Part shown: positions 53,568 to 63,762 of the stretch, piece after piece
How the letters are laid out: the number at the start of each line of letters is the position of its first letter
How positions within the stretch are numbered: the first letter of the stretch is position 1
Source of the DNA: Natrinema saccharevitans
Lineage (GTDB): Archaea; Halobacteriota; Halobacteria; Halobacteriales; Natrialbaceae
NCBI RefSeq assembly: GCF_001953745.1
Contig: NZ_LWLN01000001.1
Span: forward strand, 1,798,001 to 1,862,000
Length of the DNA: 64,000 nucleotides
Direction of reading: 5' to 3'
Notes under the pieces: generated by a model
Databases searched by the model: none
What the model was told of the DNA's origin: nothing
What the model saw: only the letters and a program-made list of their open reading frames with translations
Made by a program: the position numbers and the translations under genes

Positions 53568-54173
53568 ATGTGGCCATTAGACTTATATATTAGTATGGGG
53601 CCGGCAATACTCGGCTCGATCGCCATGCCGGCGGTCGGCGGTGAACTCGAGGCGTATCGATCGCTCGACCCGCTCTTGCGCGCGGGGATCCAGTTCGTGG
53701 GGACAGTCCTCGTCGCGATGGTCGTGCTGGGACTGCTCCAGAACTTCGGGACGCAGGCGGTCGCGAAGGCCCGACGCAGTCCGGTCATCTCGATCTGCCT
53801 CGGACTGCCGAGCCTGCTCGTCGTGGCCGGGCTCGCGGGGACGGGGTATCTCATCGTCGACACGAGCGTTGGGACCTTCTTTGGCATCCCGCTCGTTATT
53901 CTCGGGGTGACGGTCCTGCCGGCCGCGATCGCGATCGGGTTCACCACGCTCGGGCGCAACGCGGCCGCGATGGTCGGCCGTGACCGCCTCTGGACAGGCA
54001 TTCTGGTCGGCGGGCTCGTCCACGGGATCGCCGGCCTGGTGTTTCCGGCGACCGTCACCGTCGCCGCCCTCGCCGGTGCGCTCGGCATGGGTGCGAGCGT
54101 CCGCGTACTGGTGGGTGGCGTCGGTGCAGCCCGCCCCGACGACCGGACCGTCCCGCCCGCGAACAAGATCTGA
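53568..54173 (+). CDS. Membrane protein between L1 and L11 genes
   Basis: The 201-residue protein has about four hydrophobic segments (FVGTVLVAMVVLGLLQNF; LGLPSLLVVAGLAGTGYLIV; IPLVILGVTVLPAAIAIGF; VFPATVTVAALAGALGMGA) and a polar end. I do not recognise the family. It lies on the opposite strand between two ribosomal operons. CTATTATG about 28 bases before the ATG at 53568 fits a leaderless start; an ATG at 53595 is the alternative. Confidence 0.6.
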   Translation: MWPLDLYISMGPAILGSIAMPAVGGELEAYRSLDPLLRAGIQFVGTVLVAMVVLGLLQNFGTQAVAKARRSPVISICLGLPSLLVVAGLAGTGYLIVDTSVGTFFGIPLVILGVTVLPAAIAIGFTTLGRNAAAMVGRDRLWTGILVGGLVHGIAGLVFPATVTVAALAGALGMGASVRVLVGGVGAARPDDRTVPPANKI

Positions 54174-55698: not shown

Positions 55699-57210
55699 TC
55701 AGTAGACGGCGTCTTTGATCTCCTCGCGGAGTTCGTCGAACTGCTCGAGGTACTCGCGGCGCTCGGCGCGTAGGTCGGCGAGTGCGTCCTCGTAGTCGTC
55801 GACGTGATCGGGGACGTAGTAGTCCTCGACGTCGAGTTCCGGTATCGACTCGGGGACGGTCAGGCCCATCCGCTCGTCGTGGGTCCACTCGATGGTGCCG
55901 CGGGCCGCCTCGGTGAGGATCGTCACCGACTCGGTGACGCCGATGTCCTTGGACTTGTCGCCGAGATAGCCCGTGTTGATGACGTAGCAGTCGACGTCGA
56001 GGATGTCGATCAGTTCGTGGAAGATGTTGCCCTCCTCGCCCTCCGGGCCGACGATGAAGGGGTTGGTCCCGACGACGCGGATCGACTCGCCGGCGCGGGA
56101 GGGGTCGCCCGCGCTGGTCTCGATCGACTCGCCGAGCATGAAGGCGACGGCCGCCTGCTCCTCGTCGAGCTTGGCGACCGGCGGCATCAGGGGGTTTCGG
56201 GTGATGAAGAAGGCCTGATCCATGCTGCCGAGGTCGATCTCCTCGTCGGCGCTCTCGAGTTGGTCGCGCTGGATGATCGCACGGGAGTTCGAGGTGTAGC
56301 GGTCCTCGTCGAAGTCGACGGTGCCGTCCTCGTCGACGGCGACGTTCTCGAGGATCGCCGACTCGTCGGTCGCGGCCTCGTAGAGTTCGGGCTGTTCGTC
56401 CTCGCCGAGACCGATCGTCTTGATGAACAGGCCCTGGCCTTCGCTGCCGGCGACGGAGCCGTCAGAGAGGAGGCCGCAGACGTCGTCCTGCAGCATCGAG
56501 GCGTCCTCGGGGTCCTCGAGCCAGCAGCCGTGGGAGGTAAGCGTCGACTTGCCGGTCGCGGACAGCCCCATGAAGACCTGCCCGACGGTCCGGAGGTCGC
56601 CGTCGGCGTCGCGGACGCGGACCCGTTTGCTCCCCGCGTGGAGTCCGAGGCCGCCCTGCTGTTTGATCCGGTACATGAACAGCCGGAGGAACGACTTCTT
56701 GGCTTCGCCGGTGTAGTCGCTGCCTAACACGGCGGTGAAACCGGTGTCGGGAAGCACGCGGATGGCGGTCTCGTCGTAGTCGGGGAGCTGGACCGTATAG
56801 AGGTCCGGGTCCCGGCCGTCGGCGGGCTCGAACAGATTCGCCCACGCGTAGGCGATGCGGGCGTGTTCGACGGGGACGAAGAGCCGACAGCAAAACGACG
56901 CCTCGGGATGGCGGCCCATCAGTCGATCGACGCAGACGAACTCGATCTCGTCGGTGCGGTCGACGGCGTCGTCGATCAGTTGGTGATCGCGCTCGTCGAA
57001 CTCGTCGTCGACGGCGTTTTTCGTCCGATCGGCGCTCCGCGAGCGGTACTCGCTGACGTAGGACGGCGACCCGAACTCGGTGGTCGTCTCCTCGTGGTCG
57101 GCGAGTTCGCGTAGTTCCTCGAGCGACGGGTTGTACCGGACGTTCGACGCTGTGGTTGGATCCGGAAGCTGTCGGACCAGCGGACGGGACTCCGTCCCGG
57201 TTTCAGACAT
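55699..57210 (-). CDS. pckA: Phosphoenolpyruvate carboxykinase (ATP)
   Basis: PckA converts oxaloacetate and ATP to PEP and CO2 in gluconeogenesis. The 503-residue protein has kinase-type P-loop VFMGLSATGKSTLTSHG near residue 220, the second metal/ATP segment EDPEDASMLQDDVCG, and ITRNPLMPPVAKL, with IVGPEGEEGNIFHELI towards the end. It belongs to the ATP-type branch used by haloarchaea. GTTTATGC about 28 bases before the ATG is the likely TATA element. Confidence 0.94.
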   Translation of the reverse strand: MSETGTESRPLVRQLPDPTTASNVRYNPSLEELRELADHEETTTEFGSPSYVSEYRSRSADRTKNAVDDEFDERDHQLIDDAVDRTDEIEFVCVDRLMGRHPEASFCCRLFVPVEHARIAYAWANLFEPADGRDPDLYTVQLPDYDETAIRVLPDTGFTAVLGSDYTGEAKKSFLRLFMYRIKQQGGLGLHAGSKRVRVRDADGDLRTVGQVFMGLSATGKSTLTSHGCWLEDPEDASMLQDDVCGLLSDGSVAGSEGQGLFIKTIGLGEDEQPELYEAATDESAILENVAVDEDGTVDFDEDRYTSNSRAIIQRDQLESADEEIDLGSMDQAFFITRNPLMPPVAKLDEEQAAVAFMLGESIETSAGDPSRAGESIRVVGTNPFIVGPEGEEGNIFHELIDILDVDCYVINTGYLGDKSKDIGVTESVTILTEAARGTIEWTHDERMGLTVPESIPELDVEDYYVPDHVDDYEDALADLRAERREYLEQFDELREEIKDAVY

Positions 57211-57545: not shown

Positions 57546-60500
57546 ATGGCATACGGTCTCGACATCGGCCCGGGGACGGTACGGGCCGCTACCGACGCGG
57601 ACGGAGGGGAGGGGATCGACGCGGTCCCGCCGATCGTCGTTCCGGTCGACGACGCCGCCCTCGAGACGATGGGGGTCCCCGAGGAACGCACGATACGTGC
57701 GGACGGAACGACGTACGTGGTCGGCGACGTCGCCCGGACGATCGCCGACGAGACCGACGAGGAGCCACGGTCGGTGTTCGACGGCGGCGTCCTCGCGGCG
57801 GAGACGACGGCGTACGCGACGCCCGCACTGGACGCCGTCGTCGGCGACCTACTCGAGGGGGCGTCCGACGGACGCCTCTGTTATACGACGCCGGGGCCGC
57901 TGATCGAGGCCGCGGTCTCGACCGATGCGCATCGCGAGGCAGTCGAGACCGTGCTGGCCGATCGCGGCCTCGAGGCGACGCCGATCAGCACGGGGTTCGC
58001 GGTGATCTACGACCAACTGGCCGGCGACAACTACACCGGGCTTGGGATCCACATCGGGTCCCGGACCACGAACGCGACGCTCGCGTACTACGGCGTCCCG
58101 GCGATGACCTGCTCGCTCGCGAAGGGCCGGGAGTGGCTCGTCGAACGGGCGGCCGCCGAAACGGGCCACGCGGCGTCACAGGTCGCCGGCGTCCTCGAGG
58201 AGTTCACGCTCGATCCGGACGCGGCCGCCGGCGGGATCGAGAGCGCGCTCGCCGAGGCGTTCGACGGCCTGATCGCGGCGCTGATCGAGGCGATCCGCGC
58301 GGAAGCCGACGAGAGCGACGTTCAGGAGGGGCTATCCGTCCCGATCGCCATCGCGGGGACGGGTGCGGCCGAGGGCGTCGAGTACCTGTTCGGCGGCCGG
58401 TTCGACGCGGCCGCGCTCCCGTTTTCGGTCCGCGGCGTCCGGCTCGCCGACGCGCCCGCGGAAAGCGCCGCCAGTGGTGCCCTCGCGGCAGCGAACGACG
58501 ACGTCGATGCCTACGAGGCGATCACGTGGGACGACCCGGCGGCCGGCGGCGACGATGGGGATGCCGTCACTACCCCGAGCGCCGCTACCGACGACCCGGA
58601 GGATGGCGCGGAGTCGACGACCGCCGGCGGGCCGACCGAACTCGCGTTCGACGAGCCGTCACGCACCGATCCCAGCGACGACGCCATCGACCAGTTGTTC
58701 GATCGGCTCGCCGACCGCGACGCGGAGATCGAGTCGGTCCGGGCGGACGTCGAGGGACTGATCGAGGACCTCGAGTACGTCGAGGAGCGGACCGCGCCGG
58801 CCGACGCGGTCGACGAACTCGACGAGCGCCTCGAGTCGTTCGCCGACGAGCTGGCCGACCTCGCAGACGAGAGCGAGACCCACGCGGACGAGTCGGCCGT
58901 CGCGGACGTCTCGGACGACGTCGAACGACTCGACGGCGATCTCGAGGCGCTGTCGGACGCCCTCGCGGCCCTCGAAGCGGACGTCGACGGCGTCGACGAC
59001 GAACTGGCGGAACTGGACGCGACCGCGGCCGACGAGCGGGCCGCCATCGAGAAGCGACTGGACGACCTCGGGAGCGACCTCGACGCGGTATCCGAGCGGG
59101 CGGAAACGGCCGAGGACGGCCTCGACGACCTTCGAGACGACCTCGAGGTCCTCGAGGGGACGGCGGCGACCGAGGCCGATCTCGAGGCCCTCGAGGAGAC
59201 GACCGCGGAGCTGACGGCGGCCCTCGACGACCTCGAAACGGCGACCGACCGCGCCGAGACCCGACTCGAGGGGGTCTCGGGACGGCTCGAGGAACTGCGT
59301 ACCCGGATCGACGGCGTCTCGGGCCGACTCGAGGAGCGGTCCGAGCGGACCGACGCGCGGGTCGACGAGATCGAGACCGCGATCGACGAGGGGATCGCGG
59401 CCGTCGAGGCCGACATCGAGACCGTTCGCGAGCGGCTGGACGACCGGACAGAGGGGCTCGAGCGTGACCTCGACGACGCCCGGGATGCCCTCGCGAACCT
59501 CGAGGAAACGGTGGCGACCGACGAGCGAGTCGAAGGGCTCGCCGACGACCTCGCGGCGCTGTCGGACGCCCTCGAGTCGCTCGAAGACGACCTCGAGACG
59601 CGGATCGGCCGGGCGGAGTCGGACCTCGAGGGCCGGATCGACACCGCGACCGACGAGATCGCCGCGGACCTCTCGGAACTCGAGGCGACCGTCGGCCGAC
59701 TCGACGAGGAGGCTGTCACGGCGGAGACGCTCGCGTCGGTGCGGGAGTCGGTGAGCGAAACCGCCGACGGGACCGAGGCGGTGGCCGACGACGTCGACGC
59801 GATCGACGCCGACCTCGAGGTGATCGATGAACGACTGGACGACCTCGAGTCCGAAACCGAATCGCTGACCGAGACGGTGTCGGCGCTCGAGGACGAGGTC
59901 GACGATGCCGACCGACGGCTGGCCGACCACGACGACCGCCTCGCGGACGTTTCGGCGACGCTCGAGACGGTCGAATCCGCCCTCGAGGAAACCGGCGGCG
60001 ACCTCGAAACCCTCACGGAGCGGATCGACGACGCCGCCAGCGAGGAAGACCTGTCGGCCCTCGAGGACGAGGTGTCCGCGACCGCCGAGCGTCTCGAGTC
60101 GGTGCGCGCGGCATACGACGACCTCGCCGAGTCCGTCGATTCGATGCCGCCGGCGTCGGCGGTCGACTCGCTCGAGGACGAGGTGGCGACGCTCGGAAAC
60201 GATGTCCGTGCGGTCGAAGACGAGACGGGGGCGCTCGAGGATGACCTGGGGTCGGTCGAGAACGACCTCGACTCGTTGGACGAGCGATTCGGGACGGTTT
60301 CGGCGGGACTGTCCGATCTCGAGGAGCGAGTCGACTCCATCGACGCGCGACTCGACGATGTCGACGAACGGGCGGACCGAATCGACGATCTCGAGTCGCT
60401 CCGGACGGACCTCGCGGCCGTCCGCGAGGAGACGACCGCCGGTGTGGCCCTTTCGACCGCGGTCGCTGCGGGCGGTGGCGGCGCGGGCGTCGTCGCGGGC

Positions 60501-60596
60501 GGCGTCGCCGCCCTCACCGGTGAGACCGCCGTCGGGGCCGGTGCCGTCGTCCTCGGCCTCCTGTTGGTCGGCGTCGCGGTGACGCTCGCTCGCTGA
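57546..60596 (+). CDS. Actin/HSP70-fold ATPase fused to long coiled coil and membrane anchor
   Basis: The 1016-residue protein has three parts. Residues 1-330 have the actin-superfamily plan: phosphate-1 loop MAYGLDIGPGTVRAATDADG, an FtsA/MreB-like middle (CYTTPGPLIEAAVSTDAHRE), phosphate-2-like GLGIHIGSRTTNATLAYYG near residue 165, and adenosine motif PIAIAGTGAAEGVEYLFGG near 275. After an acidic linker, residues 378-961 are an almost unbroken coiled coil of D/E/L/A/R heptads with internal similarity (LEGVSGRLEELRTRIDGVSG). The end (about 966-1016) is glycine- and alanine-rich and hydrophobic and should insert in the membrane. The aspartate usual in the phosphate-2 loop is a histidine here. 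This suggests a membrane-tethered cytoskeletal or scaffold protein. Function is not known. Confidence 0.8.
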   Translation: MAYGLDIGPGTVRAATDADGGEGIDAVPPIVVPVDDAALETMGVPEERTIRADGTTYVVGDVARTIADETDEEPRSVFDGGVLAAETTAYATPALDAVVGDLLEGASDGRLCYTTPGPLIEAAVSTDAHREAVETVLADRGLEATPISTGFAVIYDQLAGDNYTGLGIHIGSRTTNATLAYYGVPAMTCSLAKGREWLVERAAAETGHAASQVAGVLEEFTLDPDAAAGGIESALAEAFDGLIAALIEAIRAEADESDVQEGLSVPIAIAGTGAAEGVEYLFGGRFDAAALPFSVRGVRLADAPAESAASGALAAANDDVDAYEAITWDDPAAGGDDGDAVTTPSAATDDPEDGAESTTAGGPTELAFDEPSRTDPSDDAIDQLFDRLADRDAEIESVRADVEGLIEDLEYVEERTAPADAVDELDERLESFADELADLADESETHADESAVADVSDDVERLDGDLEALSDALAALEADVDGVDDELAELDATAADERAAIEKRLDDLGSDLDAVSERAETAEDGLDDLRDDLEVLEGTAATEADLEALEETTAELTAALDDLETATDRAETRLEGVSGRLEELRTRIDGVSGRLEERSERTDARVDEIETAIDEGIAAVEADIETVRERLDDRTEGLERDLDDARDALANLEETVATDERVEGLADDLAALSDALESLEDDLETRIGRAESDLEGRIDTATDEIAADLSELEATVGRLDEEAVTAETLASVRESVSETADGTEAVADDVDAIDADLEVIDERLDDLESETESLTETVSALEDEVDDADRRLADHDDRLADVSATLETVESALEETGGDLETLTERIDDAASEEDLSALEDEVSATAERLESVRAAYDDLAESVDSMPPASAVDSLEDEVATLGNDVRAVEDETGALEDDLGSVENDLDSLDERFGTVSAGLSDLEERVDSIDARLDDVDERADRIDDLESLRTDLAAVREETTAGVALSTAVAAGGGGAGVVAGGVAALTGETAVGAGAVVLGLLLVGVAVTLAR

Positions 60597-61208: not shown

Positions 61209-61676
61209 TCAGTCGAAGTCCGGCAGGTCCTCGGGCGGTTCGTACTCGGCCTCCCAGTCGACGTACTCCTCTTTGAGCGTGACCGAGACGATCTGGCCGA
61301 ACTCGGTGAGTTCGGCGTTGATCGAGGAGACGGTCCCCCAGGTGTCGAGTTCGGGGTGGTACTCACGGGCTTGCCAGTCCTCGGGAATGCCGGGTGCGTG
61401 ATACCCCACGCGGTCGGCGAAGTCGTCCCAGAAGAAATCGAAGCCGGCAAAGAGATCGAGGTCCCGCGCGATCTCGTACTCCCGGTCCTCGAGATCGGTG
61501 TCGGCCCGCCACTCGTCGAACGCTTCCGTCCAGGCCCCCTCCTCGAGGAACGCCTGCAGCTCCTCGCGGCGGTAGTCGATCTCCTCGCCGTCGGCGCTGA
61601 TGGTCGCGTCGTCGTACTCGTTGGGGTCGACGAACTCCAGTTCCGGCGGCTCGGGGGGCTCGACCTCGAGTGTCAT
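61209..61676 (-). CDS. Haloarchaeal protein, tandem paralogue 1
   Basis: The 155-residue acidic protein has no known motif. It shares with the next gene the blocks RREELQAFLEEGAWTEAFDE, LEDREYEIARDLDLFAGFDF, DRVGYHAPGIPED and FGQIVSVTLKEEYVDW. The start is the ATG at 61676; upstream CTTATCCGGGAACCCGAC is almost the same as before paralogue 2, which shows that the promoter was copied too. Function unknown. Confidence 0.65.
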   Translation of the reverse strand: MTLEVEPPEPPELEFVDPNEYDDATISADGEEIDYRREELQAFLEEGAWTEAFDEWRADTDLEDREYEIARDLDLFAGFDFFWDDFADRVGYHAPGIPEDWQAREYHPELDTWGTVSSINAELTEFGQIVSVTLKEEYVDWEAEYEPPEDLPDFD

Positions 61677-61769
61677 ACCCGGCCGTAGGTCGGGTTCCCG
61701 GATAAGAATTCCCACCGCGGTCGGTTTCGAACCGGGAAGCGACCGAGCCCGCGGCCACGCGGTCGGTCG

Positions 61770-62219
61770 CTACTGCCAGGTATAGCCGAACTCCTCGCCG
61801 TCGCGGTGGATGTAGTCGGTCTCCAGTACCTCGCTGACGATCCACCCCAGCGACTCCAACTCCTCCTCGATAGTCTCGACGGCCACGTCGTCGAAATCGG
61901 CGTGATCGGCGACCGCGTCCGGCGGCACCGACGGCGTGCGGTAGCCGACGTCTTCGGCCGACTGGTTCCAGTCGAAGTCGAACGCGTCGAGCAGGTCGTA
62001 CTCCCGACCGAGTCGAAACTCCCGGTCGGTCAGGGACGGCTCCCGCGCCCACTCGTCGAAGGCGTCCACCCAGACGCCCGCCTCGAGGAAGTCGGCGAGC
62101 GCCTCGCGCCGGACGTTGTCCCCGGTTCGCTCGTCGGGTTCCTCGACGGCGTCGTAGTCGCCGAGGTGCTGGGAGCCGTGAAGCGACGGCGGATCGGGGA
62201 CCTCGACATCGAGTGACAT
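61770..62219 (-). CDS. Haloarchaeal protein, tandem paralogue 2
   Basis: The 149-residue protein is a diverged copy of its neighbour: RREALADFLEAGVWVDAFDE, LTDREFRLGREYDLLDAFDF, EDVGYRTPSVPPD and LGWIVSEVLETDYIHRDG. It begins MSLDVEVPDPPSL where paralogue 1 has MTLEVEPPEPPEL. CTTATCCGGATACTCGAC lies about 28 bases before the ATG and is the likely TATA region of a leaderless message. Confidence 0.65.
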   Translation of the reverse strand: MSLDVEVPDPPSLHGSQHLGDYDAVEEPDERTGDNVRREALADFLEAGVWVDAFDEWAREPSLTDREFRLGREYDLLDAFDFDWNQSAEDVGYRTPSVPPDAVADHADFDDVAVETIEEELESLGWIVSEVLETDYIHRDGEEFGYTWQ

Positions 62220-62823: not shown

Positions 62824-63762
62824 ATGGACGACACAGACCCGACACGATTCGGGCGACGCGGGTTCCTCGCATCGATCGCGAGCAGCGGTTTGCTCGCCGG
62901 ACTCGCCGGCGTGGGAAGCGCCGCGAGCGACGACGGCGCGGGACCGGTGACCGTCTCCGGTCGCCGCATCCACAAGTACCGACCGGACGGCGACTACTTC
63001 GAACACGAACAGCGATTCGTCAGCTCCGAGCTTCGGGACCGCTACGGCAAGGCGACGCTGGTCTACGACGAGGGAACGATCCACCGACGTGCCGTCCCCG
63101 ACGAGTACACCGATCCCGATCGCGCGTTCACCCTGAACTATCGCGACACGGCAGTGATCGGCCGCTTCCGGGAGTTCGGTCGGCTCGAGACAAAACAGCG
63201 GGACGCGGGAAGCGCGGACGCGGCGGTCGGGACGGCGTCGATCCCGGACTACACCGGACCGCTGTACGTCTACAACTCCGACGTGGACAACCCACAGGAG
63301 GAGGACCTGGGCGAGGCGACCGGCCCGATCAACGTCGGCTGGAACCGCGACCTCGATCGCGACGCCGCGTCGATCAACTCGCAGATGGAGTCGTGGGGGT
63401 GGACGTCGCTGTACGCCGGCAGCCCCGGTGACAGATACGTCATCATGGACGAGGACGCGTCCCTGCCCTACGTCACGAAACAGGACGAACACATCGTCAA
63501 GGGGCTGTCGACGCCGACGACTCAGTACCACGTCCGCGCGTACGACCTCCCCCAGTACGAGGAGGAGAACATCGCGGTCGCCGGCCAGGCGCACAAGGAC
63601 CCCGTCCTCCACGACGGCCCGCCCTGGAACTTCGCCGAGGCCCGCGAGGCCGCCTCGAGCGCCTGGGACGACAACGGGTACTCGACCGTCCTCCACTACG
63701 TCGAGAACGGCGACGGATACGACACCAGCGACGGGTCCTTCGATCAGGTCCGGGCGGGCTGA
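62824..63762 (+). CDS. Tat-exported protein of unknown function
   Basis: The 312-residue protein has a clear twin-arginine signal (RFGRRGFLASIASSGLLAGL) ending near AGVGSAAS, so it is exported folded. The mature part is acidic and tyrosine-rich (TGPLYVYNSDVDNPQEEDLG, GPINVGWNRDLDRDA, WGWTSLYAGSPGDRYVIMDE) with no cysteine and no membrane span, so it is secreted. I do not recognise the fold. A/T-rich ATTATAAAATTACG about 40 bases upstream is the likely promoter. Confidence 0.75.
   Translation: MDDTDPTRFGRRGFLASIASSGLLAGLAGVGSAASDDGAGPVTVSGRRIHKYRPDGDYFEHEQRFVSSELRDRYGKATLVYDEGTIHRRAVPDEYTDPDRAFTLNYRDTAVIGRFREFGRLETKQRDAGSADAAVGTASIPDYTGPLYVYNSDVDNPQEEDLGEATGPINVGWNRDLDRDAASINSQMESWGWTSLYAGSPGDRYVIMDEDASLPYVTKQDEHIVKGLSTPTTQYHVRAYDLPQYEEENIAVAGQAHKDPVLHDGPPWNFAEAREAASSAWDDNGYSTVLHYVENGDGYDTSDGSFDQVRAG

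Follow-up and report, generated by a model that had tools for sequence, protein, structure and literature searches.

A volactin paralogue joined to a coiled-coil rod and a membrane segment in Natrialbaceae

The gene at 57546–60596 of the window (the whole stretch of 64,000 nucleotides of Natrinema saccharevitans DNA analysed here) encodes a paralogue of the haloarchaeal actin volactin, and it is not volA itself. In this protein, hereafter the fusion, an actin-fold domain, a long coiled coil and a membrane segment are joined in one polypeptide (Table 1). The design suggests a built-in tether from the cell membrane to the actin cytoskeleton. The actin domain is already covered by the Pfam family Volactin, whereas the architecture and the catalytic loss were new to our literature search, in which no coiled-coil volactin fusion was found described in the open-access papers. 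The preliminary description had proposed a candidate for an undescribed system. As far as our search goes, this holds for the fusion design, but the domain belongs to a paralogue of a known family and not to an unrelated new actin.

The gene, its rod and its membrane end

According to the ORF listing and translation, the frame is intact from the ATG at 57546 to the stop at 60596. An alternative in-frame GTG is located 21 bases upstream. As the orthologues start at the methionine of MxxGLDIG, the ATG was taken as the start. The G+C content of the region is about 70%, and long antisense frames are present, one of which (668 aa) overlaps the gene. Thus, the length of the frame is weak evidence for a gene, and the long chance frames yielded by high G+C would suit an artefact, whether a misassembly, a frameshift that joins unrelated genes or a pseudogene in decay. 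Conservation refutes this explanation, to which we give practically no weight. Long stop-free frames are found in 74 genomes, 27 orthologues are complete with all three parts and conserved ends, and dN/dS is below 1 (0.26–0.50 for the actin part). These results prove that the gene is real and conserved and no artefact. The actin part is constrained by purifying selection, more loosely than volactin, and therefore is not decaying. The homologues are not split, and the single unshifted protein of three parts that had been read from the letters recurs in its relatives.

Table 1. Coordinates of the fusion gene, its parts and its flanking genes in the window
Feature	Position	Strand	Basis
Whole gene: volactin-like domain, coiled coil and membrane C-terminus, 1016 aa	57546..60596	+	Orthologues in 74/391 haloarchaeal genomes
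Actin-fold, volactin-like domain, residues 1–325	57546..58520	+	Pfam PF25216, AF2 model, fold matches
Phosphate-1 loop, residue 9, Pro	57570..57572	+	Thr in 54/54 volactins
Connect-1, residue 149, Thr	57990..57992	+	Glu in 54/54 volactins
Phosphate-2 loop, residue 169, His	58050..58052	+	Alignment of volactin and fusion rows
Acidic linker rich in Asp/Thr/Ser, residues 326–377, fast evolving	58521..58676	+	Translation, dN/dS
Coiled-coil rod, residues 378–961	58677..60428	+	Heptad analysis with shuffles
Conserved Gly-rich hydrophobic segment, residues 973–990, AAGGGGAGVVAGGVAALT	60462..60515	+	Near-invariant in complete orthologues
C-terminal transmembrane helix, residues 994–1015	60525..60590	+	Hydropathy and model
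Divergent neighbour, presumably ATP-type PEP carboxykinase; marks the conserved location, outside the system	55699..57210	-	Natrialbaceae synteny
Uncharacterised 168-aa protein, other flank marker, outside the system	61209..61715	-	Synteny

The linker between the actin domain and the rod shows dN/dS of 0.54–0.99, and the model has pLDDT below 50 for residues 326–332. In the rod, the excess of hydrophobic residues at the a/d positions is 0.66, compared with 0.25 ± 0.11 in shuffled sequences, and 80% of the 28-residue windows exceed the 95% shuffle level. The coiled coil that had been suggested for residues 378–961 is thus confirmed by heptad analysis. The rod of about 580 residues would be about 87 nm long if it formed one continuous helix; breaks are likely near Pro418, Gly817-818 and Pro868-869, and residues 869–974 are modelled as a single helix. 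The rods of the orthologues vary from about 140 to 880 residues, which would give a length of about 20 to 130 nm for a full helix (0.148 nm per residue). Matches to SMC, Rad50, EzrA, tropomyosin and further coiled-coil profiles along the rod were rejected as driven by composition; the NCBIfam scores of the first three are far below the curated cut-offs. Among the best 25 of 100 Pfam matches of the protein, those over the cut-off on the rod, among them DUF1664 and FlaC_arch, represent short coils.

At the C-terminus, the hydropathy (19-residue mean) reaches 2.4 near residues 995–1013, and the protein ends in a hydrophobic helix of 22 residues, modelled at 994–1015. The Gly-rich segment AAGGGGAGVVAGG precedes this helix and is nearly invariant in the orthologues. 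Of the hydrophobic glycine-rich membrane end described previously, one clear transmembrane helix and the conserved segment ahead of it stand, whereas the fold of the segment is left undecided by the C-terminal model. Its pLDDT there is 44–56, with which a hairpin and a single tail anchor are both compatible. A profile of the C-terminal module matches the source genome only once, in the 57546–60596 gene.

The actin domain compared with volactin

Pfam Volactin (PF25216) matches residues 1–316 over profile positions 1–321, scoring 405 bits where the cut-off is 35. The AF2 model of residues 1–332, built with 29 orthologues, shows a pLDDT of 89.4 and a pTM of 0.89. According to Foldseek and VIA-align, the model is closest to MamK (Z 26.8, over 289 residues), followed by MreB (Z 24.9), BeeR (24.9) and actin (about 24), with 285–299 residues matched. 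FtsA and PilM are also among the fold matches, and Hsp70 domains are among the weaker ones. The predicted structure thus agrees with the actin fold proposed earlier for residues 1–330, in the size class of MreB. MreB and MamK share this fold (Z 25–27 over 285–289 residues), but they have no fused rod and are only about 17% identical. MreB binds the membrane and, via RodZ (structure 2wus), a transmembrane partner. A sequence search of solved structures with the fusion profile gave chance matches only and no MreB chain, and a mixed profile of volactin and fusion gave a weak match to FtsA (E 4e-4).

The nearest known protein is volactin (VolA, HVO_2015, PF25216). The two domains are homologous over the whole length and 36–38% identical. 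Volactin stands alone with about 345 aa, has a short acidic tail and is nearly invariant, whereas the fusion has 1016 aa with its rod and membrane segment, evolves fast and forms its own clade. The earlier statement that archaeal actins are stand-alone agrees with the canonical volactin, which is a single domain. Salactin of Halobacterium salinarum, a haloarchaeal actin homologue described as nearest to MamK, forms dynamic filaments and is described as an aid to DNA partitioning, without mention of a coiled-coil fusion (PMC10746226).

The source genome also encodes a canonical volactin, a 371-codon frame at contig position 1792384, about 4.6 kb before the window, and it is 38% identical to the actin domain of the fusion. 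The two genes are about 62 kb apart in this genome, and no gene-neighbour link beyond this distance was found. Compared with two close Natrinema genomes, the volactin shows zero amino-acid changes over 321 codons at dS 0.12–0.16. The median identity is 86% for volactin (54 rows, several families) and 56% for the fusion domain (65 rows, among them the source genome's own volactin, L126, placed on the wrong side); both row counts contain some near-duplicates. All 74 fusion-bearing genomes carry a canonical volactin, as judged from a volactin-grade best match and a second match in each. The separate clade (support 95/95) and the second, canonical volactin in the genome indicate that the fusion is not orthologous to volA.

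Some irregular volactin copies were observed. In one Natrialbaceae genome (G364, contig C54), the canonical volactin lies in two pieces, 57721–58026 and 66867–67544, about 9 kb apart, with an insertion-like interruption. Some genomes of one genus (G106, contigs C3, C4 and C5; G211; G269) have two intact volactins with nearly equal scores, and G106 has an additional broken third copy. Volactin is reported to be probably essential in Haloferax (PMC10869688).

In the phosphate-2 loop, residue 169 is His in the source protein, Ser in all volactin rows (TGLGISFGAGMTN) and Cys, Asn, Ser, His or others in the fusions. The preliminary description had taken His in place of Asp as a sign that hydrolysis may be lost. 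The His is real, but this reading of it was discarded, since no member of the volactin family, be it volactin or fusion, has Asp at this position. As volactin has Ser and the fusions vary, His169 does not set the fusion apart from volactin with its dynamic filaments.

The differences from volactin lie elsewhere. The connect-1 Glu is present in 54/54 volactins and 12/12 phage relatives (INEG/INEA) and in 0/67 fusion rows, where residue 149 is Lys, Arg, Thr, Gln, Ser or Pro. This residue starts the helix after the connect-1 strand, at a position which we take to be that of the catalytic Glu of MreB and Gln137 of actin. MAFFT placed a gap in the connect-1 motif against MreB, and the register was set by hand at the strand-helix border of the model. 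According to the ungapped motifs (IEEPMA and INEGMS) and the strand-helix place in the model, residue 149 corresponds to the MreB catalytic Glu. In E. coli MreB, phosphate-2 reads VVDIGGGTT and connect-1 reads IEEPMA; both this Asp and the catalytic Glu are missing from the fusion. Residue 9 of phosphate-1, Thr in every volactin, is replaced by Pro in 40 of the 64 fusion rows from Natrialbaceae, and the adenosine loop is shortened by one residue and altered (GGTSSPSG to GTGAAEG). As judged from the alignment, the source fusion is separated from volactin by Glu-to-Thr at 149 and Thr-to-Pro at 9. The missing connect-1 Glu and the changes of the phosphate-1 and adenosine loops therefore make it likely that the fusion does not hydrolyse nucleotide; weakened nucleotide binding is possible.

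Distribution and origin

Volactin matches over the cut-off are found in 233 of 391 haloarchaeal genomes. The survey for the same fusion, proposed at the outset, detected it in 74 of the 391 at E ≤ 1e-62, all Natrialbaceae, as stop-free frames of 649–1564 codons. The named orthologues belong to Natrinema, Natronorubrum, Haloterrigena, Natrialba, Halovivax and other genera of this family. The actin domain and membrane end are kept in all 27 complete orthologues, with rods of varying length. An independent search with the C-terminal module profile gave 59 genomes, and 57 of the 59 matches lie within the fusion gene, as judged by place and frame length. The exceptions are a 145-codon frame (G377) and a match on a separate short contig, perhaps a fragment (G282).

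The locus is conserved. PEP carboxykinase, CutA and the ribosomal L11-L1-L10-L12 genes are located on one side, and the gene of the uncharacterised 168-aa protein on the other; this order holds in most loci with enough flank. We take the family of the carboxykinase from its sequence and from the known features of the enzyme. Several Natrinema genomes are without the fusion, and in nine relatives lacking it the same interval is short and gave zero remnants at E 0.01.

Several other genes in the window gave no Pfam match. A hydrophobic 201-aa protein (53568–54173, +) between ribosomal L1 and L11 is conserved at this place in Natrialbaceae. The 168-aa flank protein and a 149-aa protein (61770–62219, -) are adjacent and related, and the former is 74–95% identical in relatives without the fusion. 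A 312-aa protein (62824–63762, +) has a Tat-type signal (RRGFLAS).

Diverged Volactin-domain frames of 780–909 codons are present in five further genomes of two other families (f7 and f10). Three of these frames (L156, L157 and L158) show a coil bias of 0.53–0.65, compared with 0.23–0.25 in shuffled sequences, and a C-terminal hydrophobic helix. L156 and L158, the two with surroundings listed, are at different genomic places. In the tree rooted with phage volactins, all fusions group in a single clade (95/95) next to the haloarchaeal volactins. When the outgroup is left out, a branch with 92/94 support sets the volactins apart, and support for the order among the fusion groups is weak. The trees favour a single origin of the fusions without proving it, and the branches are long.

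Stand-alone actins of the volactin family also occur in huge phages. One of 339 aa, encoded in a 595-kb uncultured phage (LR756511.1; L160:2764-3780), scores 228 bits with Pfam Volactin and keeps the connect-1 Glu. Relatives are found in at least 108 viral contig stretches (including L161–L240), and some of the contigs exceed 340 kb.

Possible function at the membrane

We infer the topology, membrane insertion, dimer state, partner and mechanism of the fusion as follows. Volactin would have been duplicated in a haloarchaeal ancestor, and one copy would have gained a coiled-coil rod that ends in a membrane segment. The actin fold would have been retained in this copy, with loss of the connect-1 Glu and changes in the phosphate and adenosine loops; hydrolysis of nucleotide has thus probably ceased, and nucleotide binding may be weak. 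A signal peptide is absent, which would place the actin domain together with the rod in the cytoplasm and the C-terminus in the membrane. The rod is probably a parallel dimer, which would keep the actin domains in pairs at a distance of tens of nanometres from the membrane. The fusion may then dock on the end or side of a volactin filament as a non-catalytic subunit mimic, and tether or nucleate filaments at the membrane.

The reading that we prefer, with slightly less than an even chance of being right, is accordingly worded: a non-hydrolysing volactin paralogue on a membrane-held rod would dock onto volactin filaments. The volactin filament is the likeliest partner because the fusion domain is a copy of the volactin subunit, and the evidence for it consists of homology and the universal co-presence with volactin. 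The filaments of Haloferax volactin span the cytoplasm and reach the membrane by their tips, and unidentified binding factors have been proposed (PMC10869688). Anchoring or nucleating such filaments would be a suitable task for a subunit copy fixed to the membrane. Against this, nearly all Natrialbaceae carry volactin, and the co-occurrence therefore says little within the family. Several Natrinema genomes do without the fusion. Haloferax volcanii gave a single Volactin-family match over the cut-off in a control search and has tip-anchored filaments; thus, it appears to do without the fusion, and anchoring does not in general require it.

The fold is closest to the filament-forming MamK and MreB, and the actin domain is under purifying selection. 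These features would also suit a self-assembling cortical filament, in which the actin domains polymerise together and not with volactin, and the rods form a scaffold with a fixed stand-off. Hydrolysis can be slight or absent when actin-family proteins polymerise. However, the catalytic Glu is lost in all fusion rows and the phosphate loops are altered. The domain diverges far faster than volactin (56% against 86% median identity), unlike a self-polymer with many contacts, and a 580-residue rod on each subunit would be expected to crowd the filament. Such a filament is therefore rather unlikely. FtsA and PilM are membrane-linked adaptors with an actin fold, and the patchy presence of the fusion suggests an accessory role; tethered to the membrane, it could act as an adaptor of a different machine, be it for division, the chromosome, the surface or motility, with the actin fold as its binding domain. 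We regard this as likewise rather unlikely, since volactin, and not FtsA or PilM, is by far the nearest relative in sequence, and no conserved neighbour gene indicates such a machine. FtsA and PilM also lack the long coiled coil, and FtsA binds the membrane by a short amphipathic helix. The resemblance of the coil composition to the rods of SMC and Rad50, and the weaker Hsp70 fold matches, would fit a spacer that sits between the envelope and the chromosome, or else a stalked chaperone switch of the Hsp70 kind. The SMC and Rad50 scores, however, are far under their curated cut-offs, as would be the case for any long acidic coil, no DNA-binding segment was seen, and the domain is of volactin size without an Hsp70 substrate domain, which leaves this explanation highly improbable.

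In a more specific and more doubtful form of the docking on volactin filaments, a dead actin mimic on a membrane rod of species-specific length would cap or nucleate the filaments, and so set the place of their ends and their distance from the membrane. If this is true, tether and filament end are combined in one polypeptide, a work otherwise split among several proteins. For the attachment of archaeal actin filaments to the membrane, the fusion is a concrete, genetically testable candidate, present in about one fifth of the sampled haloarchaeal genomes. In eukaryotes, actin duplication also gave non-catalytic, actin-related accessory subunits; the fusion, if the proposal is true, would be the product of an archaeal actin duplication that yielded such a subunit.
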